A stretch of DNA of 64,000 nt from Actinomadura graeca. GTDB lineage: Bacteria > Actinomycetota > Actinomycetes > Streptosporangiales > Streptosporangiaceae. The stretch covers positions 3,968,001-4,032,000 of the forward strand of contig NZ_CP059572.1 in NCBI RefSeq assembly GCF_019175365.1, read 5' to 3'. Below, piece after piece: positions 27,298-45,617 of the stretch (within the stretch, counting starts at the first letter, position 1; each line of letters opens with the position of its first letter). The notes under the pieces are model-generated. The model was given only the letters and a program-made list of their open reading frames with translations. It did not search any database and was not told where the DNA came from. Both the position numbers and the translations under genes were made by a program.

Positions 27298-28008
27298 TCA
27301 ACCCTCCATGAGGCGGTAACCGGGTGTGCATGCCTCCGCCAGCGTCCACAGGCACCCGACCGTGACGGGCAGGTAGAGCCGGAGCTCCGGGACTCCCGTC
27401 CGTCCGGCGATCGCGTGGAAGTCGCCGAAACGGCCGTCGGGCCATTGGCGGGCGGCGAGGAACCCCACCGGTTCGGCGGGGATGGGGTGGTCGAGGTAGC
27501 CGGTGGTCCGCAGCAGGAGCGCGCCCAGCTCCAGGTCGGCGCAGCGCAGCGCCCGGATGGCCAGGGCGGGCAGCACCAGCGCGGCGGCCGGTTCACGGAA
27601 GGCCGCCGGGACCTGGAGGGGATCCGATCCGAAGCCGGTGACGGCGCTGATCGCGTCGCAGCAGTCGCGGAGCTCGTCCGGTCCCTTGGTGAGCAGGTCG
27701 TAGGGGTCGGCGTCGGACGGCCACTCCGGGGGCGGCGGCGCCGCGGCCGGGGGCCCGGGGGACGGGAAGCCGAGCGTCGTCAGGGTGATGTGGGTGAGCC
27801 GGACGAGCGTCGGGTCGTACGGCGTGAGGTCCACGTGCGCGAGGAGGTCGGCGCAGTGCGCGGCGGCGTTCTTCAGGACGGGCCCCGCCGCCGAGCAGAG
27901 CCCCAGCCCGGCCAGCCCGTACATCGCGGCCCACGGGTCGCGTGTGGCGTCGTCCTCGAACAGGCCCGACAGCCAGGCGGCGGAGCGTTCGAACGTCTCA
28001 GGACGCAT
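27298..28008 (-). CDS. DUF6895-like protein, smaller paralogue
   Basis: A 236-residue, Cys-containing, helical protein with no membrane segment. It resembles in style the larger protein encoded just upstream (alternating Leu/Ala helices, LLLRTTGYLDHPIPAEP), and both look like actinobacterial DUF6895-type proteins. A proline-rich linker (PSPGPPAAAPPPPEWP) divides it in two. It overlaps the upstream gene by 11 bp and is 2 bp from the methyltransferase gene. No catalytic motif can be named. A role in lanthipeptide maturation or immunity is only a guess from the operon. Confidence 0.55.
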   Translation of the reverse strand: MRPETFERSAAWLSGLFEDDATRDPWAAMYGLAGLGLCSAAGPVLKNAAAHCADLLAHVDLTPYDPTLVRLTHITLTTLGFPSPGPPAAAPPPPEWPSDADPYDLLTKGPDELRDCCDAISAVTGFGSDPLQVPAAFREPAAALVLPALAIRALRCADLELGALLLRTTGYLDHPIPAEPVGFLAARQWPDGRFGDFHAIAGRTGVPELRLYLPVTVGCLWTLAEACTPGYRLMEG

Positions 28009-29008
28009 CGGGCGCCTCCCACACGATCGCGGCCATGGCCGTCACGAGGGTGGTGTGGTAGCAGGTGGCGAAGACCTGCCCGGGTGCCCCGCCGTCGCGG
28101 GGGTCGTGGTGGGGGCCGGGGACGAGGCCGTCCGGGTGCTGGGCGCCCTGGAGGCAGCGCCAGGCCACGTCGGTGAGGCCGTCCGGGGGGAGGCCGAGCG
28201 CGCGCCAGCACAGCAGCAGCTCGGCGGTCAGGTCCCAGTTCCGCCACGCCACGTACTCGGCGAGCAGGAGCCGGACGAGCGCCCGCGCGTTCCCCACCGT
28301 CTCGCCGCGCGGGTAGGGCCGCGCGCCCATGTCGGTCACGGCGAAGATCACGTGGGTGATCGCGTAGGCGTCCAGGTCGGACAGGTGGCAGAGGCTGAGC
28401 CGCTCCGCGAGCAGCGACCGGCCGATCAGGTCGCCCACCGGCGGCAGGAGGTGCTCGACGCGTCCGAGGTCGAGGTAGTAGCGCAGTTCCAGCAGCCCCG
28501 CCGCGGTGCGCGCCAGCGCGTGGGTGGAGCCGCCGGCCGCGGCGACCCGGTCGCGCAGGTAGGAGTTCAGGTGCGGGACGGGGGTGCGGCCCGTCCGCTC
28601 CAGCAGGATCGCGAGGGCGGCGTAGTGCGGGAACAGGGCGTGGACGCGGGCGAAGCGCTCCTGGCAGGCGGGCCCGGCGAACACCTCGGCGGCGAGGTCC
28701 AGGGCCCGGTCGGTCTCCAGCCTCGTCACGGGCCCGAACCCGCCGCGCTCGGCCGCCAGCCGCCCGAGGATGACCAGCTCCAGCAGCGGGCCCTCGGGGA
28801 AGGCGTCGGGGGCGGCGGGCGGGCGGCGGCGCCGCGGGTCGAAGAACGGGAGCCGCTGCGTGCACCACAGCAGCGCGCGTTCGCCGAGGTCACGGACGTC
28901 CGCCTCCGCCGCGGGCGCGGACGCGTCCCCGCCGGGCGGCCCGGTGGACAGGGCCTCGCGCACGTCGTCGTCGAGGCGGCCGAACCGCCGGCGCGGAACG
29001 GCGGTCAC
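27998..29008 (-). CDS. DUF6895-like protein
   Basis: A 336-residue all-helical soluble protein. Features that stand out are LRYYLDLGRVEHLLPP, RSLLAERLSLCHLSDLDAYAITHVIFAVTDMG and a C-terminal CYHTTLVTAMAAIVWE. The His/Asp-rich DLDAYAITHVIFAVTD and YHTT segments could bind metal or substrate. The layout resembles an alpha/alpha-toroid-like repeat protein, as seen for DUF6895 proteins; family recall is moderate. GTG at 29008 overlaps the ABC ATPase stop by 4 bp. It is part of the lanthipeptide operon, together with a smaller paralogue. Function unknown. Confidence 0.6.
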   Translation of the reverse strand: MTAVPRRRFGRLDDDVREALSTGPPGGDASAPAAEADVRDLGERALLWCTQRLPFFDPRRRRPPAAPDAFPEGPLLELVILGRLAAERGGFGPVTRLETDRALDLAAEVFAGPACQERFARVHALFPHYAALAILLERTGRTPVPHLNSYLRDRVAAAGGSTHALARTAAGLLELRYYLDLGRVEHLLPPVGDLIGRSLLAERLSLCHLSDLDAYAITHVIFAVTDMGARPYPRGETVGNARALVRLLLAEYVAWRNWDLTAELLLCWRALGLPPDGLTDVAWRCLQGAQHPDGLVPGPHHDPRDGGAPGQVFATCYHTTLVTAMAAIVWEAPDAS

Positions 29009-29895
29009 CGGATACCGCTTCCGGCGCGCTGTCCCGTCCGCGAGGAGTGCAGCAGGTAGGCGTAGGCGTCTTCGAGGGACACCGGGACGGGTTCGGCGGA
29101 TTCGCCCGGCGCGCTGGTCACGACCCGTTTGGCCTGCCCGTACGCCGCGGCGACCGTGCCGAGGACGAGGCTGCCCGGCGGTTCGAGGCCGTCCGCGGGC
29201 ACGAGGAAGACGCGGCCGCGGACGGTCTCCAGGAGGTCGGCGGTCAGCCCCTGGAAGAGCACGCGCCCGTGGTCCAGGACGACGAGCTGCGGGCAGGTCT
29301 GCGCGACGTCCTCCAGGATGTGCGTGGACAGCAGCACGGTGCGGTCCCCGCCCAGCTCCGCCAGCAGCGACCGGAAGCGGATGCGCTCCTCGGGGTCGAG
29401 CCCGGCGGTCGGCTCGTCCACGATGAGCAGCTCCGGGTCGCCGAGCAGCGCCTGCGCGATGCCGACCCGGCGGCACATGCCCCCGGAGAGCGCGCGGACG
29501 CGGCGGTCCGCGAACGGGGCGAGGCCGACCAGGTCCAGCAGCCGCCGCGCCTCCTCGCGCCGCCGCCGGGACGGCAGGCCCTTGAGCAGCCCGATGTACT
29601 CGACGAACTCCTGCGCGGTCAGCTCCGGGTAGAGCGCGAGGTCCTGCGGCAGGTACCCGAGGACGCGCTGGAGGTCGCGGCGCCGCCGCCGGTCGGTGAT
29701 GTCGCGCCCGCCCAGCGAGGCGCGCCCGCCGCTGGGGCGGACGACCCCGACGAGGATGCGCATGAGGGTCGTCTTGCCGGCCCCGTTGGAACCCAGCAGG
29801 CCCACCATGCCGGGGCCGAGGTCCAGCGACACGCGGTCGAGCGCGACGACCCCGCCGCCGTAGGTCTTGCTCAGGTTCTCGGTGACGATCCGCAC
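29005..29895 (-). CDS. ABC transporter ATPase (second lan-operon transporter)
   Basis: A 296-residue ABC ATPase. Walker A is GSNGAGKTT, the Q-loop is YLPQDLALYPE, the signature is LSGGMCRRVGIAQAL, Walker B is LLIVDEPTAGLDPEE and the H-loop is STHILED. The sequence is of the CcmA/BcrA kind that drives ABC-2 permeases in antibiotic immunity. GTG at 29895 lies 2 bp after the stop of the preceding permease. With the two permeases encoded upstream it makes a complete exporter, and immunity against the lantibiotic is the likely job. Confidence 0.93.
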   Translation of the reverse strand: MRIVTENLSKTYGGGVVALDRVSLDLGPGMVGLLGSNGAGKTTLMRILVGVVRPSGGRASLGGRDITDRRRRRDLQRVLGYLPQDLALYPELTAQEFVEYIGLLKGLPSRRRREEARRLLDLVGLAPFADRRVRALSGGMCRRVGIAQALLGDPELLIVDEPTAGLDPEERIRFRSLLAELGGDRTVLLSTHILEDVAQTCPQLVVLDHGRVLFQGLTADLLETVRGRVFLVPADGLEPPGSLVLGTVAAAYGQAKRVVTSAPGESAEPVPVSLEDAYAYLLHSSRTGQRAGSGIR

Positions 29896-29897: not shown

Positions 29898-30728
29898 CTA
29901 CTCCCAACGGTAACCCGCCGCGAGGCGGTTCCGGTTGACCATGACGAGGGCGGCCGCCATCAGCGCCAGCGCGGCCAGGACGAGGGCGGCCGCCGACAGC
30001 GCGGCGGTCCCCGCCGTGACGTCCGGGGACAGGGGCGCGAGCCCGAGGCCCTGGTACGAGCGCTCGCCGCCGACGGAGATCGCGACGTACTCGCCGAGCG
30101 GCGACAGCAGGGTCCCGGTCGTCGACGGGATCGGGATCACGTTCGGGTTGAGCATGCACGCCCACAGCCAGAACGCCACGAGCAGCACCCGCGCCGCGGG
30201 CAGCGGCATCAGCAGCGCCAGCAGCGACGCGACGGCCGTGGCGACCAGCAGCCCGGGCAGGATCATCGCGACCGCCAGCAGCAGCGCCGCGCCGAACGCC
30301 TCCGGCCCGCCGTCCAGGACGCTGTGGACCGCGCCGATCGCCAGCAGCGTCCCCGCGACGAGCGTGTACGGCCCGGCGAACGACCCGGCGACGACGACGA
30401 CGGCGCGCCGCCACGGCGGGACGGGGGTGGAGTTGAGCAGGTCCCCGAGCCCCTCGTCACGTTCCCGGACGAGCCGGTCGGACAGCAGCACCCCCACGCC
30501 GATGGGGACGACGTACATCAGCAGGTTCGCCCATCCCGCGACGGCCGCGGCGCCGTGGCGGGGGGTGTCGGTGAAGCCGATGAGCAGGACGAGCGCGATG
30601 AGCGCCACGACCACCAGCGACGACGGCCGCCGGAGGAGCATCAGCCCCTCGTAGCGGACGAGCCCGGCCAGCGGGAGGCGACCGCGCGCCTTGGTCACCG
30701 CGTGCCTGCCCGGCGCCGGGACGGTCAT
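29898..30728 (-). CDS. ABC transporter permease (second transporter, larger subunit)
   Basis: A 276-residue ABC-2-like permease with about six helices. KARGRLPLAGLVRYEGLMLLRRPS is the amphipathic N-terminal elbow; later helices include ANLLMYVVPIGVGVLL and LLLAVAMILPGLLVATAVASLLALL. The ATG at 30728 overlaps the stop of the upstream permease by 4 bp. Together with the 231-residue permease and the ATPase at 29005 it forms one transporter. In frame with it, a stop-free reading frame runs all the way back into the first transporter's permease (see findings); I take the ATG at 30728 as the real start. Confidence 0.88.
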   Translation of the reverse strand: MTVPAPGRHAVTKARGRLPLAGLVRYEGLMLLRRPSSLVVVALIALVLLIGFTDTPRHGAAAVAGWANLLMYVVPIGVGVLLSDRLVRERDEGLGDLLNSTPVPPWRRAVVVVAGSFAGPYTLVAGTLLAIGAVHSVLDGGPEAFGAALLLAVAMILPGLLVATAVASLLALLMPLPAARVLLVAFWLWACMLNPNVIPIPSTTGTLLSPLGEYVAISVGGERSYQGLGLAPLSPDVTAGTAALSAAALVLAALALMAAALVMVNRNRLAAGYRWE

Positions 30729-31420
30729 TGCCGGCTCCGTCCGAGGAGGCGCTCGGTGTCCCGGCAGGCGAGCAGGACGCCCGCGACGGTGAGGGCCGTC
30801 CCGGCGGCGACGAGCGCGAGGCGGCCGGTCAGCCAGTCGGCGCCGAGCCGCGCCGCCGGGGACTGCGCGAGCCAGACGAGCAGTACTAAGACGGCGGCGG
30901 CGCCGCCGGAGCGCAGGACCAGCCCGCCGACGGCGCCGACCCCGGCCAGCGTCACGCCGGGGCCGACCGGGATCAGCGGGGCGAGCAGCAGCGGCGCGGG
31001 ATGGTTCCAGGCGCCGAACAGGCAGAGCCCGCCGATCAGCACCCAGGCGAGGACGACCGACGCGGCCAGCAGGATCCCCACCCGGCGCAGGACGGTGTGC
31101 CAGTACGGGGACGGGAGCGACAGCTGCAACTCCATGACCCGTTCCCTCGTCACGACGGTGGCGGCGCCGAACCCGATCGCGATCGGGAAGATCATCGCGG
31201 CGATCCGGACGGTCGACAGCCCGACGGTGCCCGCGCCGGCCTGGCCGGCCGCGCGGGCGGCGGCCCCGGCGGCGATCACCAGCAGCGCGGTGGCCAGCGG
31301 CGCGGCGAACCCGGCGAGCCCCACCCGGCGGGCGTCGGCGCGCAGCAGTGACAGAGGCACCATGGCCCGTACGTAGCGTCCGGTGCCCGCGAGGTTCACC
31401 TCGATCGCGGTGCTCTTCAT
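30725..31420 (-). CDS. ABC transporter membrane subunit (second transporter, smaller subunit)
   Basis: A 231-residue membrane protein with about six helices (PLATALLVIAAGAAARAAG, IAAMIFPIAIGFGAATVV, ASVVLAWVLIGGLCLFGAW and others). RERVMELQLSLPSPYW looks like the cytoplasmic coupling helix that contacts the ATPase. The ATG at 31420 overlaps the expected stop TGA of the preceding permease (ATGA), and the 3' end overlaps the next permease by 4 bp. It is part of a three-gene exporter, probably for immunity. Confidence 0.85.
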   Translation of the reverse strand: MKSTAIEVNLAGTGRYVRAMVPLSLLRADARRVGLAGFAAPLATALLVIAAGAAARAAGQAGAGTVGLSTVRIAAMIFPIAIGFGAATVVTRERVMELQLSLPSPYWHTVLRRVGILLAASVVLAWVLIGGLCLFGAWNHPAPLLLAPLIPVGPGVTLAGVGAVGGLVLRSGGAAAVLVLLVWLAQSPAARLGADWLTGRLALVAAGTALTVAGVLLACRDTERLLGRSRQ

Positions 31421-32231
31421 CGGACGAGCCGCGGGACAGGCGGGCGGCGCCCGCGAGCGAGGCCGCGCCGATCGCCGCGAGGACCGCGGCGGCCACGGGC
31501 CAGGGCGCGGCGCCGGGCGCGCCGGCGCCGAGCAGCCCGGCCCGCAGCAGGTCGACGGCGTACGTCATCGGGTTGACGCCGACGAGCGCCCGCATCCAGC
31601 CGGGCAGGGTGTCGGCGCGGAACACGGCGCCGGAGAGCATGAACAGCGGCGTCATCGCGACGCCCATGAGCGCCGCCACGGCCTCCGGGCGCCCGGCCGC
31701 CACCGACAGCAGCACGCCGAGCGCGCCGAACGAGACGCTCAGCAGGACGGCCGCTGCGGCGGTCCCGGCGGCGCTCGCGGTGGTGACGCGCACGCCGAGC
31801 AGCATCGCGACCGGCAGCAGGACGGCCATGTGGGTGAGGGCGAGCACCGCGGAGCTGCACGTCTTGGCGACGGGCAGCACCCAGCGCGGGACCGGCGCGA
31901 CCAGCAGTTCCCGCGCGAACCCGTACGTGCGGTCCCAGGCCAGGCTGACGCTGCTGGTCAGCGCGGTCAGCGTGACGTTCATGCAGGCGATGCCGGGGAA
32001 CACGTAGACGCGGATGGGGATGCCGTCGACCTCGTCCACCATGCCCCGGAACGCCACGCCGAACACCAGCATCATCACCGCGACCTGGCCCGCGCTGGAC
32101 AGCAGCAGCCCCTGGTTCCGGACGTGCCGCAACATGTCGCGCTTGCACAGCAGGTACACGCAGACGAGGTAGTGCCCTGTCATGACGCGGTCCCGATGCC
32201 GTCCGACCACGCCGCCCTGATGCGGGGTCAT
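31417..32231 (-). CDS. ABC-2 type permease (first transporter), frame disturbed at 3' end
   Basis: An ABC-2 permease starting at the ATG at 32231, which overlaps the ATPase stop by 4 bp; an ATG at 32183 is an alternative start. Typical parts are the elbow KRDMLRHVRNQG, PGIACMNVTLTALTSSVSLAWDRTYGFARELLVAPVPR, the signature-like VAMTPLFMLSGAVF and VNPMTYAVDLLRAGLLG. After the last helix (AVLAAIGAASLAGAARLS) the frame has no stop and runs on through the next gene to 29898. A one-base shift near the end would give a stop TGA at 31419-31417, overlapping the next ATG as ATGA, in keeping with every other junction of this operon. A base error, a frameshift mutation or -1 slippage are possible. Confidence 0.75.
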
Positions 32232-33151
32232 GACGCCGCCACGCAGGACAGGAAGACCTCTTCCAGGGACGACTGCCGCAGCTCCACCCGGTCGATGCGC
32301 AGGCCGTGCCGCGCGGCGAGGACGCAGAGGCCGTGCACCGACGCCGCCGGGTCGCGGTGCGGGACGAGCACGCCGCCCGGTGCCTCCAGCGCCAGGATCC
32401 CCGCCGCGCCGAGGACCGCCAGCAGCGGCCCCGGCGCGTCGACCGCGAGGTGCACCGACCCCGAACCCGCCGACATCCGCAGTTCGAGGGGGCTGCCCGA
32501 CGCGACCGCGCGGCCGCCCGCGACGACGTGCACCCGGTCCGACACCTCGGCCTCGTCCATGTAGTGGGTGGAGAACAGCACGGTCGTCCCTGCGGTGGCC
32601 ACCTGCGCGCGGACGTCGCTCCAGAACACGGCGCGCGCCTCCGGGTCGAGGCCGGCCGTCGGCTCGTCCAGGACGAGCAGGCGCGGCCGGTGCAGCAGCG
32701 CGCGCACCAGCTCCACGCGCCGGGCGAGGCCGCCCGACAGCCGCCGGACCCGGTCGGCGGACCGCCCGTCCAGCCCGAAGCCGCCGAGCAGCTCCCGCGC
32801 GCCGGACCGGGCCGCCGACCTCGACATCCCGAACAGCCGCCCGTGCAGGACGAGGTTCTCCATCACGGTCAGCTCCGCGTCCAGCGTCGGCTCCTGGAAG
32901 ACGACCCCGAGGTCGCGGCGGAGCGTGGGGTCCTCGCCGCCGATGCTCCGGCCGAGGACCGTCAGCGTGCCGTCCTGGACGGGTGCCAGGCCGCACACCT
33001 GCCGCAGGAAGGTCGTCTTGCCCGCGCCGTTCGGCCCGAGCACGGCGGTGATCTCCGCGGTCCGGGCGGCGAGGTCCAGGCCGTCGAGGGCCGCCACCCC
33101 GCCGTAGCGGAAGCGGAGGCCCTCGGCCCGCACCGCGTCCGGGCGGTTCAC
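32228..33151 (-). CDS. ABC transporter ATPase (first lan-operon transporter)
   Basis: A 307-residue DrrA-type ABC ATPase. Walker A is GPNGAGKTT, the Q-loop is VVFQEPTLD, the signature is LSGGLARRVELVRAL, Walker B is LLVLDEPTAGLDPEA and the H-loop is STHYMDEAE. The C-terminal 80 residues form the DrrA-like regulatory domain, ending SSLEEVFLSCVA. GTG at 33151 overlaps the lanD stop by 4 bp, and its own stop overlaps the permease start by 4 bp. With that permease it is a half-exporter pair, likely for the lanthipeptide itself or for immunity. Confidence 0.93.
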   Translation of the reverse strand: MNRPDAVRAEGLRFRYGGVAALDGLDLAARTAEITAVLGPNGAGKTTFLRQVCGLAPVQDGTLTVLGRSIGGEDPTLRRDLGVVFQEPTLDAELTVMENLVLHGRLFGMSRSAARSGARELLGGFGLDGRSADRVRRLSGGLARRVELVRALLHRPRLLVLDEPTAGLDPEARAVFWSDVRAQVATAGTTVLFSTHYMDEAEVSDRVHVVAGGRAVASGSPLELRMSAGSGSVHLAVDAPGPLLAVLGAAGILALEAPGGVLVPHRDPAASVHGLCVLAARHGLRIDRVELRQSSLEEVFLSCVAAS

Positions 33152-33726
33152 GCGCCCGCCTCCCGCAGCGCCGGCCCGGCGACGCGCTCCCGCAGCTCGT
33201 CCCTGACCGTCGCGACGAGCTCCTCGACGGTCGGCGGCGCGATCCCCGCGACGATGCCGCGGCTGGCCGCCTCGTAGACCCGCGCCGCCACGGGCTCGAC
33301 CAGCCGGTGCCCGTCCTCGCGCAGCGTCGCGGCGTTGCGCCGCACCGCGGGCGAGGCCCACATGTCGGCGTTCATCGCCGGGACGATCAGCAGCGGGCGG
33401 CGGTGCGCGAGGGCGGTGGTCGTCAGCAGGTTGGGCGCGGCGCCGTGGGCCAGCGAGGAGAGGGTGTGCGCCGTGCAGGGCAGGACGACCAGCAGGTCCG
33501 CCCAGCGGGACAGCCGCACGTGCCCCTCGCCGGGGTCGGCGTCCGTGGCGGTCTCGACGAGATGCGCGAGGGTCGTGGCGGGCAGGAACCGGTCGGCCGC
33601 CGGGGTGAGGACGGCCTTGACGTCCACCCGCACCGCGCGCAGCGCCCCGAGGAACGCGGGCAGCTGCAGGATCGCGATCGAGCCCGTGGCCCCGACGAGC
33701 ACGCGGGCCGGGCGCTTGCCGTTCAC
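33148..33726 (-). CDS. lanD: LanD-type HFCD flavoprotein (peptidyl-Cys decarboxylase)
   Basis: A 192-residue FMN-binding decarboxylase of the EpiD/MrsD/Dfp (HFCD) family. VLVGATGSIAILQLP is the FMN-binding start, H69 in EGHVRLSRWADLLVVLPCTA matches the active-site His of EpiD, and VPAMNADMW (116-123) is the PxMNxxMW substrate-recognition motif. It is expected to oxidatively decarboxylate the C-terminal Cys of the lanthipeptide to give the enethiol for an S-aminovinyl-cysteine (AviCys) ring, as MibD does in microbisporicin. GTG at 33726 overlaps lanC by 4 bp. A coenzyme A role is unlikely because the CoaB half is missing and the context is lanthipeptide. Confidence 0.9.
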   Translation of the reverse strand: MNGKRPARVLVGATGSIAILQLPAFLGALRAVRVDVKAVLTPAADRFLPATTLAHLVETATDADPGEGHVRLSRWADLLVVLPCTAHTLSSLAHGAAPNLLTTTALAHRRPLLIVPAMNADMWASPAVRRNAATLREDGHRLVEPVAARVYEAASRGIVAGIAPPTVEELVATVRDELRERVAGPALREAGA

Positions 33727-35348
33727 GCGCCGAAGGCCAGCTCGGCGAACAGGCCGGGGCCCGTGTGACCGCCGCGCCCCGCGTACCCGCCGGGGCCGCC
33801 CGTGTTCGGATCCGTTCCGCCCGCGGTGCCGGTGGCGGGCCCGCCGGTGTCCAGGAGGACGGCGGCGACACCGGCGGCGCCGTCCAGCACCCCGGCCACG
33901 TCCAGCAGGAGCCGCCGGTCGTCCGCCGTGCCGCTCTCCGCGGCCCGGACGGCGTGGCGGTAGCCGAACGGGAGCGCCGGATCGCAGGCGCCGGCGATCT
34001 CGCGTGCGAGGCCCGCCGCGAACGCCCCGAGCTCGCGGGACCCGGGTCCGGCGAGCCGGTGCGCGGCGGCGAGCAGGCCGGACGTCCCGTGGCAGACGGT
34101 CACGCCGTCGAGCTTCCAGGCGTCGCGGGGGCGGGCGAAGACGGCGCGCAGCCCGTCCAGCGCGAGGCGCGACCACTCGGGACGGCCGAACGCGCGTCCC
34201 GCCGCGTCCAGGGCGAGGCCGAGACCCGGCGCCCCGTAGCACCACGCGCTCCGCGCGATCACCTCGCCGCGCGGGGCGCCTTCCAGCTGCTCACGCCAGG
34301 AGACGCGGCACGGCCAGTACGGTCCGGCCTCGTCCCGCAGCGCGCGCCCGGCCAGCCACTCCGCCGCGTAGGACACGCCCTCCTCGGCGCCCGCCGGGGC
34401 CGTCCCGCGCAAGGCGGCGGCCGCGAGCACGGCCATCGGCCCGGCGGGGCCGTGCGCGAACCCGGCGTTGAAGTCGCCGAGCGGGTACGTGCGCTCGTCG
34501 TCGGCGGTCGGCTGGAGGTGGGAGGGCACCCACCAGCCCGGCACCTCGTGGCCGCCGACCCGCACCGGACGCAGGACGGCGGCCAGCTGCTCCAGCCCGG
34601 CGTCCGCGGCGCGGCGCGCGTGGTCGAGGACCTCGGGGTCGCCGGACGGGTCGTCCGCGACGGCCATCAGCAGCCGGGTCAGCCCGCCGATGCCGGAGAC
34701 GACGTCGTAGCCGTGCCAGCCGACGCCCGGTCCCCGATTGCGCCGCCCGGCCTCCTCTTCACAGCGTTTCAGCAGGTCGTCGGCGACCCAGGGGACGAGC
34801 CCGGCGTGCAGCCGCCGGTACGGGGCGCCGGCGCGGCGGGCGGCGGTGACCGCGGCGAGGATGGCCGCCGGGCCGCAGTAGAGCCCGGTCGCCGGGTAGG
34901 CGCGCACCGCGTCGAGCGCGGCCGTGATGTGCGCGTGCGCCATCGGGAGCCACCGGTCGTCCTGGACGGCGGCCTGCGCGGCGGCGAGCGCCACGCCGGG
35001 ATGCCCGTGCGCCAGCGAGACGGGGTTCCAGGTGGAGTGCCCGTAATAGGGGATCTTGTTGCGGGGGTCGCCGGCGATCTCGGCCACGGTCACCGGGTCC
35101 CACAGCTTCGTCAGGACGTGCTCGGCGGCCTCCCGCGCGGCGGCGGACGGCGCGTCGCCGGAACGCGGGGCCGTATCAGGGGGCGGCGCCGTATCCGAAG
35201 GCGGCGCCGCGTCAGGGCGCGGTCCGCCGCCGGAACGCGGTTCCGTGTCGGAACGCGATGCCGGTTCGGTGTGCGTCGTGCTGGCGGGGGGCTTTGCGGC
35301 GGGGGGCGTCGCAGCGGGCTGCGACATCGCGGGGGGAGCGGGGGTCAA
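33723..35348 (-). CDS. lanC: LanC lanthionine cyclase with a proline-rich N-terminal extension
   Basis: A 541-residue LanC. The zinc ligands are C370 (AWCYGAPG) and C419-H420 (VCHGTSG), with the GHPG and DVVSGIGGL turns of the alpha/alpha toroid before them. It adds Cys thiols to Dha/Dhb residues made by LanB. The TTG at 35348 is chosen as start: GGAAGGAAG lies just upstream and it overlaps the lanB stop as TTGA, matching the 4-bp overlaps of the operon; the ATG at 35327 has no ribosome site. About 65 N-terminal residues are an unusual Pro/Ala/Ser/Asp tract with repeated DTAP-like units, absent from standard LanC. Many family members are about 400-430 residues. Confidence 0.93.
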   Translation of the reverse strand: MTPAPPAMSQPAATPPAAKPPASTTHTEPASRSDTEPRSGGGPRPDAAPPSDTAPPPDTAPRSGDAPSAAAREAAEHVLTKLWDPVTVAEIAGDPRNKIPYYGHSTWNPVSLAHGHPGVALAAAQAAVQDDRWLPMAHAHITAALDAVRAYPATGLYCGPAAILAAVTAARRAGAPYRRLHAGLVPWVADDLLKRCEEEAGRRNRGPGVGWHGYDVVSGIGGLTRLLMAVADDPSGDPEVLDHARRAADAGLEQLAAVLRPVRVGGHEVPGWWVPSHLQPTADDERTYPLGDFNAGFAHGPAGPMAVLAAAALRGTAPAGAEEGVSYAAEWLAGRALRDEAGPYWPCRVSWREQLEGAPRGEVIARSAWCYGAPGLGLALDAAGRAFGRPEWSRLALDGLRAVFARPRDAWKLDGVTVCHGTSGLLAAAHRLAGPGSRELGAFAAGLAREIAGACDPALPFGYRHAVRAAESGTADDRRLLLDVAGVLDGAAGVAAVLLDTGGPATGTAGGTDPNTGGPGGYAGRGGHTGPGLFAELAFGA

Positions 35349-38300
35349 GGATCTTCCTTCCGGGTGTGGCGGCGGCGCTCCGCGTGATGGAGCGCGCACG
35401 CGCGGGCCAGGGACATCGCGGCGGCCTCCCGCTCCAGGCCGCCCGCGCCGATGATCCGGTTGCAGTGCATGTGGAGGAGGCTGCCGACGATACGGCTCTC
35501 CGGCGTCCACGGTTCGACCAGGTTCCGGGCGACGTCCCGGTAGGCCGTGAGCGTCGCGTCCCGGTGGCCGAGGAGGTCCAGCACCGCAGGGCCGCCTGGC
35601 AGCTCACGGAGCCCAGGCCACCCGCCGGCCGGGTCGATGAGCGCGGCCCTGCGGTGCCTGTCCCGCCGGAATCCCGGCGGGACGTCATGGGGCGGCCCGG
35701 TGGTCGACATCCAGGCCGCGACGGGGTCGTGCAGCCAGCGCGTCCCGACGGCCGCGCGGTCGTCCGCCGCGACCGGCCCGCCCCAGGCGTGGACGAGGGC
35801 GGTGACGCCGATCGCGGCGAGGTCCACCGGGTCGAGCCCGTGCTCCCGGGCCAGCCGCAGCAGGCCCATCGCGGTCTCCGAGTCGGCCTGGAAGAAGCGT
35901 TCCGCGGCGTCCATCGCCTCGGGGCCGCCATAGCGCTCGTACTCGGGGTCGTAGGCGTCCAGGACCAGCCGTCCGGCGAGCCCTGCGCGTTCCCAGCCCG
36001 ACACGGTGTCGTGCAGAAGGGAGAGGACCGGGCCGTTCAATACGGCAGCGTCTCCATGCAAGCGCAGCCGGATGTGGAATCCGGGGTCGGTGTAGCGGAT
36101 GAAGAACCAGCGGTCCACGCCGCCGAGCGCCGCGGCCTTGCCCACGAGCTCCGGCAGGTGGTCGCGGACGAGCACGTCACTGCGCTCCGGCGCCATGTAC
36201 AGCTTGGCGTACAGCCAGCCGGCCCCGGGTTGCACGGCGCGCGGACGGTCCGTCAGGAGCGGCGCCCAGGTGGGACGCGGGCGCCGGTCGGGTTCCCGCC
36301 GCCGCACGGGCAGGACGATCTCCGCGACGTACCCGGCCTCCCCGTCGCGCGCCGCGTCTCCTCCGGTGCCCCCGCCGCGCGCCGCGTCGCCCGGGGAGAA
36401 CCAGCCGTCGGCGAAGTCCTCGCCGCCCGGCACCTCCTGCGCCACCAGGCTCATGCCCCGCTTCAGCTCGTTGCGGAGCAGTTCCACGTCCCAGCCGTCC
36501 CGCAGGTCGAGGCGGATCCGCTGGTCGTTGCTCGTCGCGAGGATCCGGGCGGGGACTGCCCAGCGGTCCCGCCAGTCCGCGAGCGCCGCCGCGAACCGCG
36601 CCGGGTCCGCCGCGTCCGGACGCAGCGGCTCCAGCGACCAGCTCGCCGACCACAGCACCGTCCGGCCGTAACGGACGCGCGGCAGGTACGGCGCCGCGCC
36701 CATCGCCGACCAGTCCCACGGCGACCACATCTGGTGGTGCTCGAACGCGATCTCGCACAGCAGCCGCACGGCGTTCGGCGCCTGCGTCCGCACGTTGAGC
36801 ATGTTGTGGAACACCGGCCGGACGATCCTGCCGCTCGGGGCGTGCACCGCGTAGAGCCCGCCGAGGGACGCGCCCACGGCGATGTCGTCCAGGTCGATCT
36901 CCTCAGGGCCGCCCGCCTCCTCGCCCGAGTCCGGGAGCGCGGCGACCCCGACCGACAGCCGCGTGTCCGTCCAGCCGGGGTCGCGCGCGATGTTGCCGCT
37001 GCGCGCGTGCCTCGGCTCGTAGCGGACGACGACCGGGAGCGCCTCCCCGCGGGCGGAGTCGCGGACGCAGGCGGCGACGGTGCCGCGCGCCGCCTCGGGG
37101 AGCACGTCGCCGAACCGACCGAACGTGGATCCGTCCAGGTGGGAGCCGGGGTTCGGTGACACCACGAGACGGAGGTCACCGCGGTCGACGGCCGCCTCGT
37201 CGGCCGCGACGACGTGCAGGTACAGCTCGAAGCCGGGCGGCGCGGAGTCCGGGTCGTGCTCGCCCTCGCACAGCGCGTCCAGGAGCGCGTCGTCCAGGAC
37301 CACCTCCCGGCGGCCGTCGCGGACCGCGTCCCAGAGCAGGGACGTGAGGAGCCGCGCGATGCCGGGCGGCCGCACGCCCGGCGCGTCCTGCGACGGGTCC
37401 CCGTCGCCCGCGCCGCCGCGCGGGCCGGGCGGCCAGGAGTACCCGGCGGGCGCGCCGAGCCCCCGGTCGGCGTCCAGCAGCTCCTTGACCGGCACGAGCC
37501 GGCCGAGCCCGTACCGCTCCACGAACTCGGCGTGGTACCCGCGCAGCGCGGGCGTCCCCAGCAGGGGAGGGGCGAGCCGCCACAGCACCTCGGCGGCCCG
37601 CGCGCCCTCGGAGGCGACGTCCATGGGAAGCTGCACCCGGTGCCCGAGCCGCAGGTCCACGTGGACCGCGGAGTTGGTGTGGGCGTTGGCGGCGCCGCGG
37701 ACGTCCCGCAGCAGCCGCACGGCCTCCTCCGGTTCGGCGGCCGGGAGGGCGCGGACGACCCGGTCCAGCGCGTCCAAGCGGGCCCGGACCTCCGGATCCC
37801 CCACCCGGGCATCGCCGCCGCCCGCGTGCGCGGCGGCGGCCTCGCGGTCGACGCGGCGGAGGACCGCGTGCGTCTCCGCCAGCCGGTCGCCAGGGCCGAG
37901 CCGCGGCCGCAGCTCGGTGACCAGCACCTGCTCGGCGACCAGCCCGCGCACCAGCCGCAGGACGGCGTCGTCCGTCGCGCGCGCGAACCGGGCGAGCAGC
38001 GCCGCGGCGAGCTCGTGCACCGCCACGGGCCGCCGTGCCAGCCCGAGGGCGGCGAGGACGACGGGCGTGGCGCGCACGGAGGTGACCGCCCTGCCATCGC
38101 TGCCCGGGTCGATGTCCGGATTGGTGGGATTGGGCATGACCACTCGGTCCCCGTGCGTCTCCACGAGCTGGTGGGTCTGCACGCGCAGCCACCACAGCAC
38201 CGCCCCGTCCAGTTCCAGGACGCGGGTCAGCCGCGCGAGCACGGCGTTGTCGGCGCGGGCCACGACGCGGTGGCCGGCCGGATCCGACCAGACCACCTTG

Positions 38301-38695
38301 GTGTTCCCCGCGAACGCGACCGACGTCACGCCCGCGAACAGCCCGAACGGCGTCGGCCTCGTCGCGGCGCGCCGCGCGTAACGGTGCACGGCGAGCGCGA
38401 CGCGCACGGCATCGCCGCCGGCGCGCGCACCGGTTGCGGTTCCGTTCTCGGTTTCGTCCAGGACGGAACGCACGCCCCGGACCAGGTCGGGGCTGGCCAG
38501 TTCCAGCGCCGCCATGAAACGGGCGTCCGACACCGCCGCGCGGAGCAGCCGCGCCGCGTCCTCGACGCCGGGTGAACCGGGGGCGCCGGGAAGGGGATCG
38601 AGGCGGAACGCGGCGGGCAGCACCGGCGCGCGCAGCATTCCGGCAGGCCACGGCTCGAACAGCGGCGGCCTCGCCTCGGCTGGTGACTGGGACAC
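35345..38695 (-). CDS. lanB: LanB lanthipeptide dehydratase (full length)
   Basis: A 1116-residue class I dehydratase that glutamylates Ser/Thr of the precursor using Glu-tRNA and eliminates to Dha/Dhb. The N-terminal glutamylation domain starts MLRAPVLPAAFRLDPLP and includes RRAATRPTPFGLFAGVTSV, the family signature. The C-terminal elimination (SpaB_C) domain has WLYAKLYMAPERSDVLV, WFFIRYTDPGFHIRLRLHG and YDPEYERYGG. GTG at 38695 is chosen because GAGGGAAG precedes it; longer starts run into the hairpin after lanA. It follows lanA by 100 bp, with a strong stem-loop between. Both domains are in one protein, as in NisB and MibB. Confidence 0.95.
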   Translation of the reverse strand: MSQSPAEARPPLFEPWPAGMLRAPVLPAAFRLDPLPGAPGSPGVEDAARLLRAAVSDARFMAALELASPDLVRGVRSVLDETENGTATGARAGGDAVRVALAVHRYARRAATRPTPFGLFAGVTSVAFAGNTKVVWSDPAGHRVVARADNAVLARLTRVLELDGAVLWWLRVQTHQLVETHGDRVVMPNPTNPDIDPGSDGRAVTSVRATPVVLAALGLARRPVAVHELAAALLARFARATDDAVLRLVRGLVAEQVLVTELRPRLGPGDRLAETHAVLRRVDREAAAAHAGGGDARVGDPEVRARLDALDRVVRALPAAEPEEAVRLLRDVRGAANAHTNSAVHVDLRLGHRVQLPMDVASEGARAAEVLWRLAPPLLGTPALRGYHAEFVERYGLGRLVPVKELLDADRGLGAPAGYSWPPGPRGGAGDGDPSQDAPGVRPPGIARLLTSLLWDAVRDGRREVVLDDALLDALCEGEHDPDSAPPGFELYLHVVAADEAAVDRGDLRLVVSPNPGSHLDGSTFGRFGDVLPEAARGTVAACVRDSARGEALPVVVRYEPRHARSGNIARDPGWTDTRLSVGVAALPDSGEEAGGPEEIDLDDIAVGASLGGLYAVHAPSGRIVRPVFHNMLNVRTQAPNAVRLLCEIAFEHHQMWSPWDWSAMGAAPYLPRVRYGRTVLWSASWSLEPLRPDAADPARFAAALADWRDRWAVPARILATSNDQRIRLDLRDGWDVELLRNELKRGMSLVAQEVPGGEDFADGWFSPGDAARGGGTGGDAARDGEAGYVAEIVLPVRRREPDRRPRPTWAPLLTDRPRAVQPGAGWLYAKLYMAPERSDVLVRDHLPELVGKAAALGGVDRWFFIRYTDPGFHIRLRLHGDAAVLNGPVLSLLHDTVSGWERAGLAGRLVLDAYDPEYERYGGPEAMDAAERFFQADSETAMGLLRLAREHGLDPVDLAAIGVTALVHAWGGPVAADDRAAVGTRWLHDPVAAWMSTTGPPHDVPPGFRRDRHRRAALIDPAGGWPGLRELPGGPAVLDLLGHRDATLTAYRDVARNLVEPWTPESRIVGSLLHMHCNRIIGAGGLEREAAAMSLARACALHHAERRRHTRKEDP

Positions 38696-38746: not shown

Positions 38747-38789
38747 GACGGCCGGCCCCGACCGCGCCCGAAGGGCGGGGCCGGCCGTC
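38747..38789 (-). terminator. Stem-loop between lanA and lanB, attenuator candidate
   Basis: A perfect 14-bp inverted repeat (38747-38760 with 38776-38789; core CGGCCGGCCCCG) with a 15-base loop sits about 10 bp after the lanA stop on the minus strand. In lantibiotic operons such hairpins act as partial terminators or RNA stabilisers, so that lanA message exceeds that of the enzymes. No U-tract follows. Confidence 0.7.
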
Positions 38790-38795: not shown

Positions 38796-38987
38796 CTAGC
38801 AGCAGCACCAGCTGCAGAAGCTGCCGCCGCCCGGGCTCGTGCAGCCCGGAGTGCAGACCGCATGGCTCGTCACGGACGGGCCGGTGGTGACCGTGATCAC
38901 GGAGCTGTCGATGTCGAGGTCGAAATCGGCGTCGAAGTCCATGTCCGAGCCGGGGGTCGTCGTGCCCTCCGTCGCGTTGACCGGCAT
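38796..38987 (-). CDS. lanA: Class I lanthipeptide precursor, microbisporicin/NAI-107 family
   Basis: A 63-residue precursor. The acidic leader has an FDLDI box (LanB/LanC recognition, the FNLD-like motif) and ends in TTGPS, like the NAI-107 leader end (TAGPA as recalled). The predicted 25-residue core starts VTSHAVCTPGCTSPGGG and ends SFCSWCCC. From memory, NAI-107 has VTSWSLCTPGCTSPGGG and SNCSFCC, so rings A-D can form. Differences: W4 to His, S5 to Ala (no Dha5), L6 to Val, N19 to Phe, F22 to Trp, and one extra C-terminal Cys. The ATG at 38987 has GGGAAGGGAAAG upstream. The product should bind lipid II via ring A/B; the LanD partner implies a C-terminal AviCys. No protease gene is in the window. 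Confidence 0.93.
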   Translation of the reverse strand: MPVNATEGTTTPGSDMDFDADFDLDIDSSVITVTTGPSVTSHAVCTPGCTSPGGGSFCSWCCC

Positions 38988-39571
38988 TTCTTTCCCTTCC
39001 CTGGGCGTACTGACGGTTCACTGGAAATCCGCGTGGAGTTCCAGCCGCCCTGACCTGGTGCCGAAACGACTCGTGCACCTCCGCCTCCCGGGCGACGAAT
39101 TAGCCGCCTCCTCAACCGACCGGGACAAGGTGACTGCCATGATCTGTGTTGCGTGCCAGCGGTGTTCAAGAGGTGGCTGTGAAGCTGGCAGTAATGACAC
39201 TCAGCGCTGACTATGCGCCAGGGCGGCACTACGCAACGTCACTGTTTCCGTCTCGGTCGCATTGCGTCGGTGGCCGTGTTCGGAGCGGCTCTGGGGAGCT
39301 TCCGCGGACCGGTCGCGGACCCGATTCTCATGTGCTGAACAGGCGTCCTTGACCTGAATACGTCATCCTACTTGATGACCTTGAAAAGGGTTTCGCGGCC
39401 GTTCTCCGCACGAGCTCTCGGCCAAGGGTGTCCACGGACCGTGATGGCCGTTAGTCTCACCGCGGTAACGAGCGACGCCCGATCTTTTCCGGCTGCCAGG
39501 ACTGCCAGATACGGTCTGTCCGCGCACCACGGCGGCCGGAGGGCCCGGGACGGCTATCGGGGAGCACGACC
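38988..39571. promoter_or_regulatory. Divergent control region of the lanthipeptide cluster
   Basis: A 584-base region without a supported gene, between lanA (minus) and the ECF sigma operon (plus). Both promoters must lie here. In microbisporicin and planosporicin clusters the ECF factor drives lanA and itself from GAACC-N15-GCTAC-type sites (recalled). A partial match is listed at 39337. A short inverted repeat, GTCATC-N6-GATGAC, lies at 39362-39379, directly after it. No equally good site facing lanA was found. Confidence 0.5.
39337..39361 (+). promoter_or_regulatory. Candidate ECF-sigma promoter upstream of the sigma operon
   Basis: GAACA, 15 bases, then AATAC, against the recalled MibX/PspX consensus GAACC-N15-GCTAC: 7 of 10 positions agree with correct spacing. 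It lies about 210 bases before the sigma-factor start and is followed at once by a GTCATC/GATGAC dyad. This is a weak match and could be chance. Confidence 0.3.
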
Positions 39572-40153
39572 ATGACAGATGTCGACACGTACGACCTGCC
39601 GGGCGGTGACATCGGCGATGAGGACCTCATGGCCGAGGTCTGCCGCGGGCGGGAGTCCGCGCTGCGGGTGCTCTACGACCGCCACAGCACGGCCATGTTC
39701 CGCCTGCTCCTGCGCCTCACCTCCAGCCGCCCGCAGGCAGAGGAGATCCTGCAGGAGGTCTGGCTGGCAGTGTGGCAGTCCGCGTGCCGGTTCCGCGGCG
39801 AGTCGTCCGTCCGCGGCTGGCTGCTCGGCGTCGCCCGCCGCCAGGCCCACAACCGGCTGCGCCGCCGGGAGTTCGCGCTCGCCCCGCTGGAGGAGGCGTC
39901 CCACGTCCCCGACCCGGGCGCCGACGTGGAGGCCAGCGTCCTGTCCGCCGCCGCCCGCGAGACGCTCACCGACGCGATCATCGCGCTCCCCGAGCATCTC
40001 CGCGAAGTCGTCGTCCTGGCCCTCGTGGACGAGCTGCCATACCGGGACGTGGCAGCCGTGCTCGGTATACCCGTCGGTACGGTGAAGAGCAGGATGTCGC
40101 ACGTGCGGGCCAGGCTCATGCGATCGTTGGTGGAAAGGCAGGAGTCGCTGTGA
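39572..40153 (+). CDS. ECF RNA polymerase sigma factor of the lanthipeptide cluster
   Basis: A 193-residue sigma-70 family ECF factor. Region 2 reads DLMAEVCRGRESALRVLYDRHSTAMFRLLLRLTSSRPQAEEILQEVWLAVW and SSVRGWLLGVARRQAHNRLRR; region 4 reads LPEHLREVVVLALVDELPYRDVAAVLGIPVGTVKSRMSHVRARL, the promoter -35 reader. Its stop overlaps the GTG of the membrane anti-sigma gene (GTGA), a standard sigma/anti-sigma coupling, like mibX-mibW in microbisporicin. It probably activates the lan operon and itself. The position next to lanA on the divergent strand supports this. Confidence 0.93.
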   Translation: MTDVDTYDLPGGDIGDEDLMAEVCRGRESALRVLYDRHSTAMFRLLLRLTSSRPQAEEILQEVWLAVWQSACRFRGESSVRGWLLGVARRQAHNRLRRREFALAPLEEASHVPDPGADVEASVLSAAARETLTDAIIALPEHLREVVVLALVDELPYRDVAAVLGIPVGTVKSRMSHVRARLMRSLVERQESL

Positions 40154-41037
40154 CGCATTTGTCCAACGAAGAGATCGCGCGCGCGGCCCGTGCCGCCGAC
40201 CGCCGCCTGACCGGTGACCCCGACGTCCCGTCCTACACGGCCCTCCTCGGCGGCCGGCTGCCCGCCCGCCACGCCCCGGCCCGGCACGCCAGGCCGGTCC
40301 GGCGGCACGCCCAGACGCCCGTCCCGGCGCCCGTCCCGGCCCCGCATCCCGTCCCGCGCCCGGCTCCGCACCGGCGCCCGGCGTCCACCCGCCCCTCCCT
40401 CGTGGAGGCGCTCCGGACCGCCGCCGAACTCACCTCCGCCCAGGTGCGGCTCCTCCCCCGGGCCCTGCCGACGCTCTCGGCCATCGGCCTCGCCGGGGCC
40501 GTCCTGCTGGCGCTGACGACACCCGGCACGACGGCCGTCCGCCTGTTCGGCGCCGCCGTCACCCTGATCGTGCTGGCCGGCGCGCTCTGCGTCCGCGGCG
40601 CCCGCCGCGACCCCCGCGGCGAGCTGCTGCGCACGCTGCCGGTCGGCCCCCGCGCCGTGTTCCTCGCCCGGCTCACCCTCGTCCTCGGCTGCGACGCCGC
40701 GGCCGCGCTCGTCGCGTCCGCCACCGCCGGGCTCGCCGGCGACACCCTGCGGACCGGCGAGCTGATCTCCGCGTGGCTCGGCCCGTCGCTGCTGTCCTCC
40801 GCCGTCGCGGTCACGCTCACGGTCTGGCGCTCGTCCGTCCTCGGGATGCTCGGCGGCGCGCTGACCTGGACGCTCGTCACCCTCCCCGGCACCGGCGGCG
40901 CGCACGAGAGCGGCCTCGGCGCCCTGTTCGGCCGCACCTGGGCCACCACCCCCTGGGTCGCGCCCGCCGCCCTCGCCCTCTTCGCTGTCGCGACCGTCCT
41001 CGCCGACCATCCGAGGACCGTCCGACCCGAACGGTGA
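40150..41037 (+). CDS. Membrane anti-sigma factor (MibW-like)
   Basis: A 295-residue protein: a short cytosolic N-terminus (THLSNEEIARAARAADRRL), a long Pro/Arg/His linker (about residues 40-80), then about six membrane helices (for example SAIGLAGAVLLALTT, VTLIVLAGALCV, AAALVASATAGLAG). The classical HxxxCxxC zinc anti-sigma motif is absent. By position, coupling and topology it corresponds to the multi-helix anti-sigma proteins MibW/PspW of related clusters. It is expected to hold the sigma factor inactive until a cell-envelope signal, perhaps the lantibiotic acting on lipid II. The function is inferred from context and topology. Confidence 0.75.
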   Translation: MTHLSNEEIARAARAADRRLTGDPDVPSYTALLGGRLPARHAPARHARPVRRHAQTPVPAPVPAPHPVPRPAPHRRPASTRPSLVEALRTAAELTSAQVRLLPRALPTLSAIGLAGAVLLALTTPGTTAVRLFGAAVTLIVLAGALCVRGARRDPRGELLRTLPVGPRAVFLARLTLVLGCDAAAALVASATAGLAGDTLRTGELISAWLGPSLLSSAVAVTLTVWRSSVLGMLGGALTWTLVTLPGTGGAHESGLGALFGRTWATTPWVAPAALALFAVATVLADHPRTVRPER

Positions 41038-41094
41038 ACCACCGACCCCCCCGTCGCTACGTACTACCCGTACGAGCGACCCGAGGGAGGCGCG

Positions 41095-41691
41095 GTGGGA
41101 GAACTCCGCCTGATGAGCCGGACGGCCGGCGTCATGGTGATCTGTGACAGCCTTGGCGACCAGTTCGAGCCCTATACCTCCTGGCTGGACGGCCTTGGGG
41201 TCCGCTGCGCGTTCACCGGCGACGTGCCGTCCGCCGTCCGCCGGGACCGGCCGCCCCTGGTGGTGCTGCCCGTCTTCACCGAGGTGAACGCCCGGCGCCT
41301 GCACGAGCTGACCGACGAGCACCCCGGCGTCGCCGTCCTCGGCGTCGTCCGCGACCTGACCGGGCACCAGACGCACCGTGCGATCCACCACGGCGCCACC
41401 TGGGTCCTGAACATGCTCCTGCCGACGCAGTGCTACAAGGACGTCCTGCTGACCCTGGCGGGCACGTACCTGACCCGCGGCCCCACGTCGGCGCCCACGA
41501 GCGAGGACGAGGACGAGGAACTGATCCGCCTCCTCTGCGGCACGGCCACCGTCGCCGAGATCTCGAAGCACTTCTACTGCTCCGAACGCTCGATGTACCG
41601 CAGGCTCCGCTCCCTGTACTCCCGCCTGGGCGTCCGCGGGCGGAACCAGCTCCGCGCCCACGTCGCCCGCTCACGCCAGGACGTCACCTAG
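41095..41691 (+). CDS. LuxR-type regulator of the lanthipeptide cluster (MibR-like)
   Basis: A 198-residue protein. The N-terminal 140 residues look like a degenerate receiver (VMVICDSLGDQFEPYTSWLDGLGVRCAFTG ... PPLVVLPVFTEV ... GATWVLNMLLP) lacking the phospho-acceptor Asp. The C-terminus is a LuxR-like helix-turn-helix (ELIRLLCGTATVAEISKHFYCSERSMYRRLRSLYSRLGVRGRNQL), preceded by an acidic Asp/Glu linker. GTG at 41095 has GAGGGAGG upstream. It lies 57 bp after the anti-sigma gene. In microbisporicin the LuxR-type MibR is the master activator that triggers lanA expression; the same role is likely here. Confidence 0.85.
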   Translation: MGELRLMSRTAGVMVICDSLGDQFEPYTSWLDGLGVRCAFTGDVPSAVRRDRPPLVVLPVFTEVNARRLHELTDEHPGVAVLGVVRDLTGHQTHRAIHHGATWVLNMLLPTQCYKDVLLTLAGTYLTRGPTSAPTSEDEDEELIRLLCGTATVAEISKHFYCSERSMYRRLRSLYSRLGVRGRNQLRAHVARSRQDVT

Positions 41692-44173: not shown

Positions 44174-45607
44174 ATGAGCCCAGTGCGGCCACCTGGCGCC
44201 ACCGAGAACGAAGATCTTGTCAAGACCAGGCTGGCTGCTGTAGGCAAGGGCGGCGGCACTCCCGAGACGTTCCGGATCGAGTGGCGCAGCGAGGGCAACC
44301 GCAATCTCCCGGTCATCGACATGCCGGTGAGCGCGCTCTACTACAATCCCGAGACGCACCGCATCCGGGCGCAGCGTGCCCACGACCCAGCGCGGGATGC
44401 GGCTCTGACGGCTGATCCGTGGACCCCGCAGAGCCAGGCGTACCTTCATGACCTCCTCATGGCCAAACCGGACAACCCTGATATCCAGGACCCCGATTTC
44501 GTCGCCCTGATGGAGGACCTGAAGAACAACGCGCAGAACACCGCGGGCCTGATCACCCCCACGGGCATCGTGGTGGACGGCAATACCCGGTGCGCCGCAT
44601 TGCGGGAAATCGGACAGCCCAATATCCGCGTTGCCGTCCTTCCCGAAGACTGGGGCTGGGGCGATGTCAATGACGTGGAACTTAGCCTTCAGCTGCGCAA
44701 GACCTTCCGCCGGGACTACTCGTTCATCAACGAGATCATCGCGCACGCCGAGCTCCTCGCAGCAGGCCGCTCCCTCGACGAGACCGCCGCCGCGTTCCGT
44801 AAGAAGAGGAAGACCATCGAGCAGGGGCAGTGGGCATTGGCTCTCATCGATGAGGCCATCAAGCGCAGCCGTGCTGCCTTGGACGACGGAACTGGCGTCC
44901 AGCTTCGCCGACTGGATTTTGAGGGCCACCAGGAGTCCCTCAGGGAGATCTACGAGCGGTACAAGCGTGTCCGGGCACAGGACCCCGACCTCGCCCAGCG
45001 GCTCAGGGAGGCCAGCCTGGCGGCGCTCTTGGTAGATGCCGCCAAGACCGACATCCGCAGTATCTGGCTCGTCGAGGATTTTGATGAGAAATACCTCAAG
45101 CCCAAGCTGACAACCGAGCTCAAGGTCGCTCCCGCCACGTCCGAGCCCGCTGGGGTGAGTATCCCGGGGCTCAGCATCACGATGGACGCCGAGGATTCCA
45201 AGATCAAGGAAGCCAGGGCCACCACAGACAAGCTGCTGAGGGCCAAGGCCCGGTCAGCCTCAGCGGCGAAGCTGTCACCGGCCGAGACCGCCCGGAATTC
45301 GGCGCTCATCGCCGAGGCGGACAAGGCCATCAGGGAGAGCCTCCGGCAGGCCAACCGTGACGTCCGCCAAGCACAGCGGAAGATGGCCGCCCCCGAGAAG
45401 CTAGACGAAGCGACCGACGCTCTCCGGGCCTGCATCGACGACATCGCCAAGGCCCGTGCTCAGAATGTCCTCGATAACGAGGCGCTGGATGACGCCTTGA
45501 TGGGGCTGCGCGACACCCTCACGCGGCTCGGCCGGACGGCGGCACGTGGTGTGCGGGGCGAGCCCGGCCCGGGTCTGTCGTGGCTGCTGCTTGCGACCAT
45601 GGACTAG
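44174..45607 (+). CDS. ParB-like protein of the restriction island
   Basis: A 477-residue protein. The N-terminal region has a ParB-type nucleotide-binding pattern: NLPVIDMPVSALYYNPETHR, then LKNNAQNTAGLITPTGIVVDGNTRCAALREIG, where G-x-x-x-P...VVDGNTRxAAL matches ParB boxes I-II. A DEKKT-like central domain (RRDYSFINEIIAHAELLAAGRSLDETAAAFRKKRKTIEQG) looks like a ParB helix-turn-helix. The C-terminal 150 residues are a long Ala/Arg-rich coiled coil. ATG at 44174 has GGAG upstream. It is the first gene of a row with an SNF2 helicase, a DUF3883 protein and NaeI; ParB-like CTP switches may load or license the helicase. The role is inferred. Confidence 0.8.
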   Translation: MSPVRPPGATENEDLVKTRLAAVGKGGGTPETFRIEWRSEGNRNLPVIDMPVSALYYNPETHRIRAQRAHDPARDAALTADPWTPQSQAYLHDLLMAKPDNPDIQDPDFVALMEDLKNNAQNTAGLITPTGIVVDGNTRCAALREIGQPNIRVAVLPEDWGWGDVNDVELSLQLRKTFRRDYSFINEIIAHAELLAAGRSLDETAAAFRKKRKTIEQGQWALALIDEAIKRSRAALDDGTGVQLRRLDFEGHQESLREIYERYKRVRAQDPDLAQRLREASLAALLVDAAKTDIRSIWLVEDFDEKYLKPKLTTELKVAPATSEPAGVSIPGLSITMDAEDSKIKEARATTDKLLRAKARSASAAKLSPAETARNSALIAEADKAIRESLRQANRDVRQAQRKMAAPEKLDEATDALRACIDDIAKARAQNVLDNEALDDALMGLRDTLTRLGRTAARGVRGEPGPGLSWLLLATMD

Positions 45608-45617
45608 GGATCGGATC

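Follow-up and report, generated by a model that had tools for sequence, protein, structure and literature searches.

The closest described systems are the lantibiotics NAI-107 and microbisporicin. NAI-107 binds lipid II through its rings A and B, and precursors of its type end at Cys23-Cys24; a chlorinated Trp4 and a hydroxylated Pro14 are microbisporicin's own. A passage of PMC4203916 places NAI-107 in the late preclinical phase. For the mib cluster of M. corallina, a passage of PMC4973701 describes MibX as acting on GAACC-N15-GCTAC promoters of mibJ, mibQ, mibR, mibX and mibE, though not on mibA, which depends on MibR.

Actinomadura graeca 32-07 carries one chromosome and two plasmids, and its nearest relative is Actinomadura macra, at 89.61% ANI (PMC8631618). 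The stretch of A. graeca DNA analysed here (64,000 nucleotides, the window) holds a complete-looking gene set for an NAI-107 relative in a soil actinomycete. Judged from its genes, it is probably a working Actinomadura cluster for a class I lantibiotic of the NAI-107/microbisporicin type, and it encodes a real, apparently undescribed variant of this known type.

The precursor peptide and its relatives

The initial annotation had placed an NAI-107-like precursor at 38796..38987, and an open reading frame of exactly this extent is present, although it is read from the minus strand; translating the interval on the plus strand gave no such peptide. The 63-aa lanA product (minus strand, 38987-38796) is MPVNATEGTTTPGSDMDFDADFDLDIDSSVITVTTGPSVTSHAVCTPGCTSPGGGSFCSWCCC, followed by a stop codon, and a purine-rich sequence, GGGAAGGGAAAGAA, is found a short way 5' of the ATG. 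The leader (38874-38987) has an FDLD box and a GPS/VTS junction, at which cleavage is predicted from alignment with NAI-107. The core (38799-38873), directly after GPS, is VTSHAVCTPGCTSPGGGSFCSWCCC, with cysteines at positions 7, 11, 20, 23, 24 and 25; the six cysteines and the -CSWCCC end that had been proposed are thus read directly from the translation.

The core of the NAI-107 producer Microbispora sp. ATCC PTA-5024 (P0029) is VTSWSLCTPGCTSPGGGSNCSFCC. Both cores are identical through the centre CTPGCTSPGGGS and differ at His4, Ala5, Val6, Phe19 and Trp22 of the window peptide, which also adds Cys25, so that every difference listed beforehand holds against this reference. With one cysteine more than the NAI-107 type, the window peptide is a variant and not a standard member. 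It has the pattern x-TS-x3-CTPGCTSPGGGS-x-CS-x-CC, and all five residues that normally serve as ring donors (Ser3, Thr8, Ser13, Ser18 and Ser21) are in register; beyond these, only Thr2 and Thr12 are left. The donors (S41, T46, S51, S56 and S59) and Thr12 (T50) are invariant in all 25 rows of an alignment chosen from 62 family members plus A. macra; P0011, outside this alignment, has Ile at position 8, so the donors do vary in the family as a whole. The Pfam Gallidermin profile (PF02052) scores the window peptide at 19.1 bits (cut-off 21), an assignment that is nevertheless made in the protein database, and TIGR03731 of NCBIfam scores it at 21.3 bits (cut-off 29.3).

The loss of Trp4 had been said to match the lack of a halogenase gene. 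Neither of the two halogenase matches in the whole genome lies in the window, nor does any of the 36 P450 matches, and the correspondence is consistent but weak: Trp4 is missing from 41 of the 61 other family precursors, as counted in the precursor sequences.

When about 5.8 billion proteins were searched with a profile, 62 family members were obtained, each standing for one 90%-identity cluster; the A. macra precursor is not listed separately among them, and P0002, the window's row, represents three member sequences. The other gallidermin-type actinobacterial precursors (P0004-P0064) share the leader box and the core pattern with the window peptide but mostly end directly in -CC, as do 55 of the 62 members, whereas -CCC ends are found in three: P0002 and two metagenomic precursors of another group, P0043 and P0056, which end -CSFCCC. 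Three more have tails past -CC (P0007, P0013 and P0033) and one is truncated (P0064). Among the NAI-107-like precursors with tails, P0007 ends -CCIFK and P0033 ends -CCVPI; on these the usual AviCys could not form without trimming. Elsewhere in the same taxonomic family, a small peptide, MSDFDLDPEVDRHPQTPTPESPQITSVSLCTPGCQTGFLACFSQACNPTGGCKISK, is encoded at L007:1510-1680 on the plus strand (genome G330); by eye it looks like a precursor of the nisin kind, and its leader box is similar.

An orthologous, syntenic cluster with the same -CCC end is present in A. macra NBRC 14102, with the lanA product VTSHSVCTPGCTSPGGGSFCSWCCC. The two precursors are 93.7% identical in amino acids, with changes at 14.3% of third codon positions and 3.2% of first and second positions, and at the DNA level the final 11 sense codons of lanA, together with its stop, show no difference. 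Ten other genes of the cluster are 76-100% identical, with third-position changes of 11.5-28.3%. Because the end recurs in this orthologous cluster, it is no artefact, and by this sequence comparison it is neither chance nor a sequencing error. The A. macra core has Ser5 in place of Ala5, which makes a Dha5 possible in its product. A tree was built from 62 rows (P0013 and P0064 left out, A. macra and locus L003 brought in); it rests on a short alignment and leaves many forks unresolved, but the -CCC rows form two pairs, each well supported. The best tree has two changes to -CCC, and a single origin was obtained in 25% of 200 bootstrap trees. On these sequences the -CCC end is rare, yet recurrent in two precursor groups.

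Gene content and regulation of the cluster

Downstream of lanA on the minus strand lie genes for LanB, LanC, LanD, an ABC ATPase and a permease. The LanB dehydratase (35345..38695, 1116 aa, start chosen by eye) matches PF04738 (542 bits) and PF14028 (177 bits), both scored on a longer open reading frame. Its best solved structure is 5ehk ('Lantibiotic dehydratase', E 1.5e-185), which we take to be MibB. The LanC cyclase (33723..35327, 534 aa, start likewise chosen by eye) matches PF05147 (E 1.7e-35, on a longer frame), and the flavin-dependent cysteine decarboxylase LanD (33148..33726, 192 aa) matches PF02441. They are followed by a LanT-like ABC transporter ATPase (32228..33151; PF00005, drrA-type matches) and a LanU-like ABC-2 permease (31420..32231, extent approximate; PF01061), the frame of which runs on after a one-base length difference from A. 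macra near its 3' end.

Further along the same strand are two ABC permease-like membrane proteins, a second ABC ATPase, a DUF6895 protein and a 236-aa protein. The first membrane protein (30725..31363), MibE-like by position, has its start taken from a promoter motif, a weak PF12698 match (E 0.01, on 30725-31420) and 89.6% identity with A. macra; the second (29898..30728) has a weak PF12698 match (E 0.021) and 90.6% identity. The ATPase (29005..29895), MibF-like by position and 97.3% identical in A. macra, scores 130 bits against TIGR03740 (lantibiotic protection ATPase), below the cut-off of 309.75. Separate LanB and LanC proteins are thus encoded with a Ser/Thr/Cys-rich precursor, as in class I lanthipeptides, and a LanD decarboxylase in the same gene row, as in the NAI-107 type. 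These genes and lanA support the proposal that the cluster makes an NAI-107-type class I lantibiotic and has the LanD that AviCys formation requires. The central sequence, the five ring donors, LanBCD and the transporter genes are common to microbisporicin/NAI-107 and the window; the sixth, terminal cysteine and the five substitutions are the window's, and Trp4 and any halogenase or P450 match are missing from it. Additional LanB genes occur elsewhere in the genome.

Between lanA and lanB, folding predicts a hairpin (38747..38789, minus strand) of -38.5 kcal/mol (z -3.0), with a counterpart of -41.2 kcal/mol (z -3.9) in A. macra; the stem letters differ between the species and the pairing is preserved. 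This hairpin is possibly a partial terminator and may let transcription of lanA exceed that of the enzyme genes.

As in the mib cluster, an ECF sigma factor is encoded beside lanA. The MibX-like gene (39572..40153, plus strand; PF04542 and PF08281; 96.4% identity with A. macra) is followed on the plus strand by a 297-aa hydrophobic protein (40144..41037), MibW-like by position and by hydrophobic stretches read by eye, for which NCBIfam gave no match and Pfam none that was significant (best E 0.21); it is a probable membrane anti-sigma factor. Next is a 198-aa protein (41095..41691, plus strand), a probable MibR-like regulator on the evidence of position, promoter and a helix-turn-helix seen by eye. 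Searches of Pfam and NCBIfam returned no significant family match for it, such as to the LuxR-type C-terminal DNA-binding domain expected of a MibR. All 198 aa are identical in its A. macra counterpart (100%), although 20.7% of the third codon positions differ.

The exact motif GAACC-N15-GCTAC occurs twice in the window (0.08 expected from shuffles): at 41036..41060 on the plus strand, before the MibR-like gene, and at 31373..31397 on the minus strand, before the second transporter set. Both copies recur exactly in A. macra, where the spacer letters are different, and their placement is like that before mibR and mibE as described in part of PMC4973701. With up to two mismatches allowed, 66 matches were found and 51 expected, so that such matches are uninformative. 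In contrast to the mib cluster, where mibX itself is preceded by the motif, no convincing motif but a single near match was found before the sigma-factor gene. The region between lanA and this gene (38988-39210) is nearly invariant, by eye, with respect to A. macra, and possibly holds regulator binding sites. With LanB, LanC, LanD, transporters, an ECF sigma factor and these promoter motifs, the cluster looks functional. Similarity to A. macra stops at about 42.56 kb; beyond it, genes for a helicase, a NOV_C protein, a NaeI-type restriction endonuclease and a cytosine methylase (45546-51072, plus strand) form a probable restriction-modification island.

A DUF6895 gene and its neighbour

The window cluster has a DUF6895 gene after its second transporter set. 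The 336-aa product (27998..29008, minus strand) is a candidate peptide epimerase and the single match of its family in the genome (PF21836, E 2.3e-60, 204.9 bits, cut-off 23.8); with the start used, its gene shares 4 bases with the end of the ABC ATPase gene. His219, Asp259, Glu263 and His318 are invariant among 20 aligned members, the window's included, and the structure model is an alpha/alpha barrel (pLDDT 88). The title of Shi et al., ACS Catal. 2026 (cited in PMC13352647), names a DUF6895 epimerase for lasso peptides. Since the window protein belongs to the same family, a D-residue in the lantibiotic product is possible, although the window gene lies in a class I lantibiotic cluster and the epimerase of that title acts on lasso peptides.

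Of 341 genomes in the window's taxonomic family, 36 carry DUF6895, and the stretches around 29 of 39 matches were examined for Lan relatives. A LanB relative was present in five, four of which come from one genus, and a LanD relative in one; 23 of the 29 had no relative of LanB, LanC or LanD, which indicates that the DUF6895 family is not tied to lantibiotics. At one locus of genome G282 (L064), about 7-8 kb separate the DUF6895 gene from a LanD relative of 43.6% identity, and no LanB relative was found there or in L071; L064 possibly encodes another type of AviCys peptide. The 236-aa protein whose gene overlaps the DUF6895 gene (27298..28008, minus strand) had no Pfam match and has no family assignment; a relative of it adjoins DUF6895 in two of the 29 stretches (L063 and L066).

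LanD and the predicted processing of the C-terminus

EpiD, a relative of LanD, prefers substrates that end in cysteine and have a bulky residue at the antepenultimate position. The best solved structure for the window LanD is MrsD (1p3y, E 2.6e-26), and the window protein shares with MrsD and EpiD the flavoprotein family, the catalytic His and the MN motif: PAMN is present, and His69 of the GHV motif is invariant across an alignment of 12 sequences that includes the window's. LanD is about 84-88% identical in A. macra, conserved roughly like its neighbours. The window protein has PCTAH where MrsD has PATAN, and its expected substrate ends in -CCC; PCTAH or PCTAN occurs at this place in the LanDs of the window, A. 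macra and P0068-P0070, and PATA in P0071 and P0073, which seem to be paired with the -CC precursors P0052 and P0022. These sequences hint that the LanD substrate pocket changed together with the -CCC end. The C-terminal cysteine is given as the target of LanD in part of PMC11162475, which also describes the class V lanthipeptide sistertide as having the AviMeCys motif T-X4-C (Thr29/Cys34).

The chemistry of the product is predicted from these genes. Because the peptide has three terminal cysteines where two are usual, its last ring is probably closed in another way or a thiol is left over. LanB would dehydrate Ser3, Thr8, Ser13, Ser18, Ser21 and probably Thr2, and LanC would close rings A, B and C in the manner of NAI-107. 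Since LanD acts on a C-terminal cysteine, decarboxylation is expected at Cys25 unless this residue is trimmed. LanD would decarboxylate Cys25 oxidatively, and its enethiol would add to Dha21, giving an AviCys ring of five residues instead of four; the wider motif of sistertide suggests that ring size is no obstacle in principle. Ser18 would then pair with Cys23 (or Cys24) and, with five donors for six cysteines, one thiol would stay free; the end with rings A and B is expected to bind lipid II in the way that NAI-107 does. The calculated neutral mass of the 25-residue core after six dehydrations and decarboxylation is 2294.84 Da; it falls to 2276.83 Da with seven dehydrations and to 2191.83 Da with six if Cys25 is lost, and the A. 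macra core with seven gives 2292.82 Da. Several points count against this reading: the preference of EpiD fits -WCC and not -CCC, a free thiol alongside the Dha/Dhb stages would be reactive, and the ring donors vary in the wider family, as P0011 shows. We consider an AviCys between Ser21 and Cys25, larger by one residue, with one free thiol and otherwise NAI-107-type rings, to be the most likely outcome, at even odds of being right. The full combination of this ring, a free conserved thiol and a D-residue set by the DUF6895 protein in an NAI-107-type lantibiotic is put forward more tentatively.

Removal of Cys25 by a peptidase before LanD acts would leave -SWCC, an ordinary end, as -CC closes 55 of the 62 relatives; the rings would then be the usual ones of NAI-107, and the AviCys would form at Cys24. 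Tails after -CC (-IFK, -VPI) do exist in the family. This reading is doubtful: no peptidase family was matched among the genes scanned around the cluster, in a search that was not exhaustive, and both precursor groups have a cysteine as the extra residue, with no change from one species to the other. That LanD is inactive on -CCC, leaving the C-terminal carboxylate, terminal lanthionine rings and one cysteine free or in a disulfide, would agree with the breach of the EpiD substrate motif and with PCTA instead of the PATA of P0071 and P0073; it appears unlikely, as lanD remains part of the operon, its catalytic residues are intact, and at 87.5% identity it is conserved to about the same degree as its neighbours.

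Three consecutive TGC codons at the end of lanA make lengthening by slippage conceivable, and the third cysteine could be a neutral by-product without chemical effect, or the cluster silent. We judge this quite improbable: -CCC is retained between species despite the third-position changes in the cluster genes, it occurs in the second precursor group too, and a chemically neutral additional thiol is hard to imagine. Least likely is a sixth thioether to the extra cysteine, formed on dehydrated Thr12 (or Thr2), because the usual five donors are present and only these two threonines are to spare. Every one of the 25 aligned precursors has Thr12, but this residue is just as invariant in those with five cysteines, lies outside the C-terminal ring region, distant from Cys23-25, and stays unmodified in NAI-107.

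The near-constant end of the NAI-107 family has seemingly been altered by nature, and the alteration retained in two species. The cluster offers a direct test of LanD's choice of cysteine and of the limits that class I lantibiotics set on AviCys ring size. Chemical groups could be attached to a free thiol, if present, as a natural handle, and another route to D-residues in lantibiotics might come to light through the DUF6895 gene. If the enlarged Ser21-Cys25 AviCys is indeed formed, it would mean an altered C-terminal chemistry on the scaffold of an antibiotic lead, in two precursor groups.
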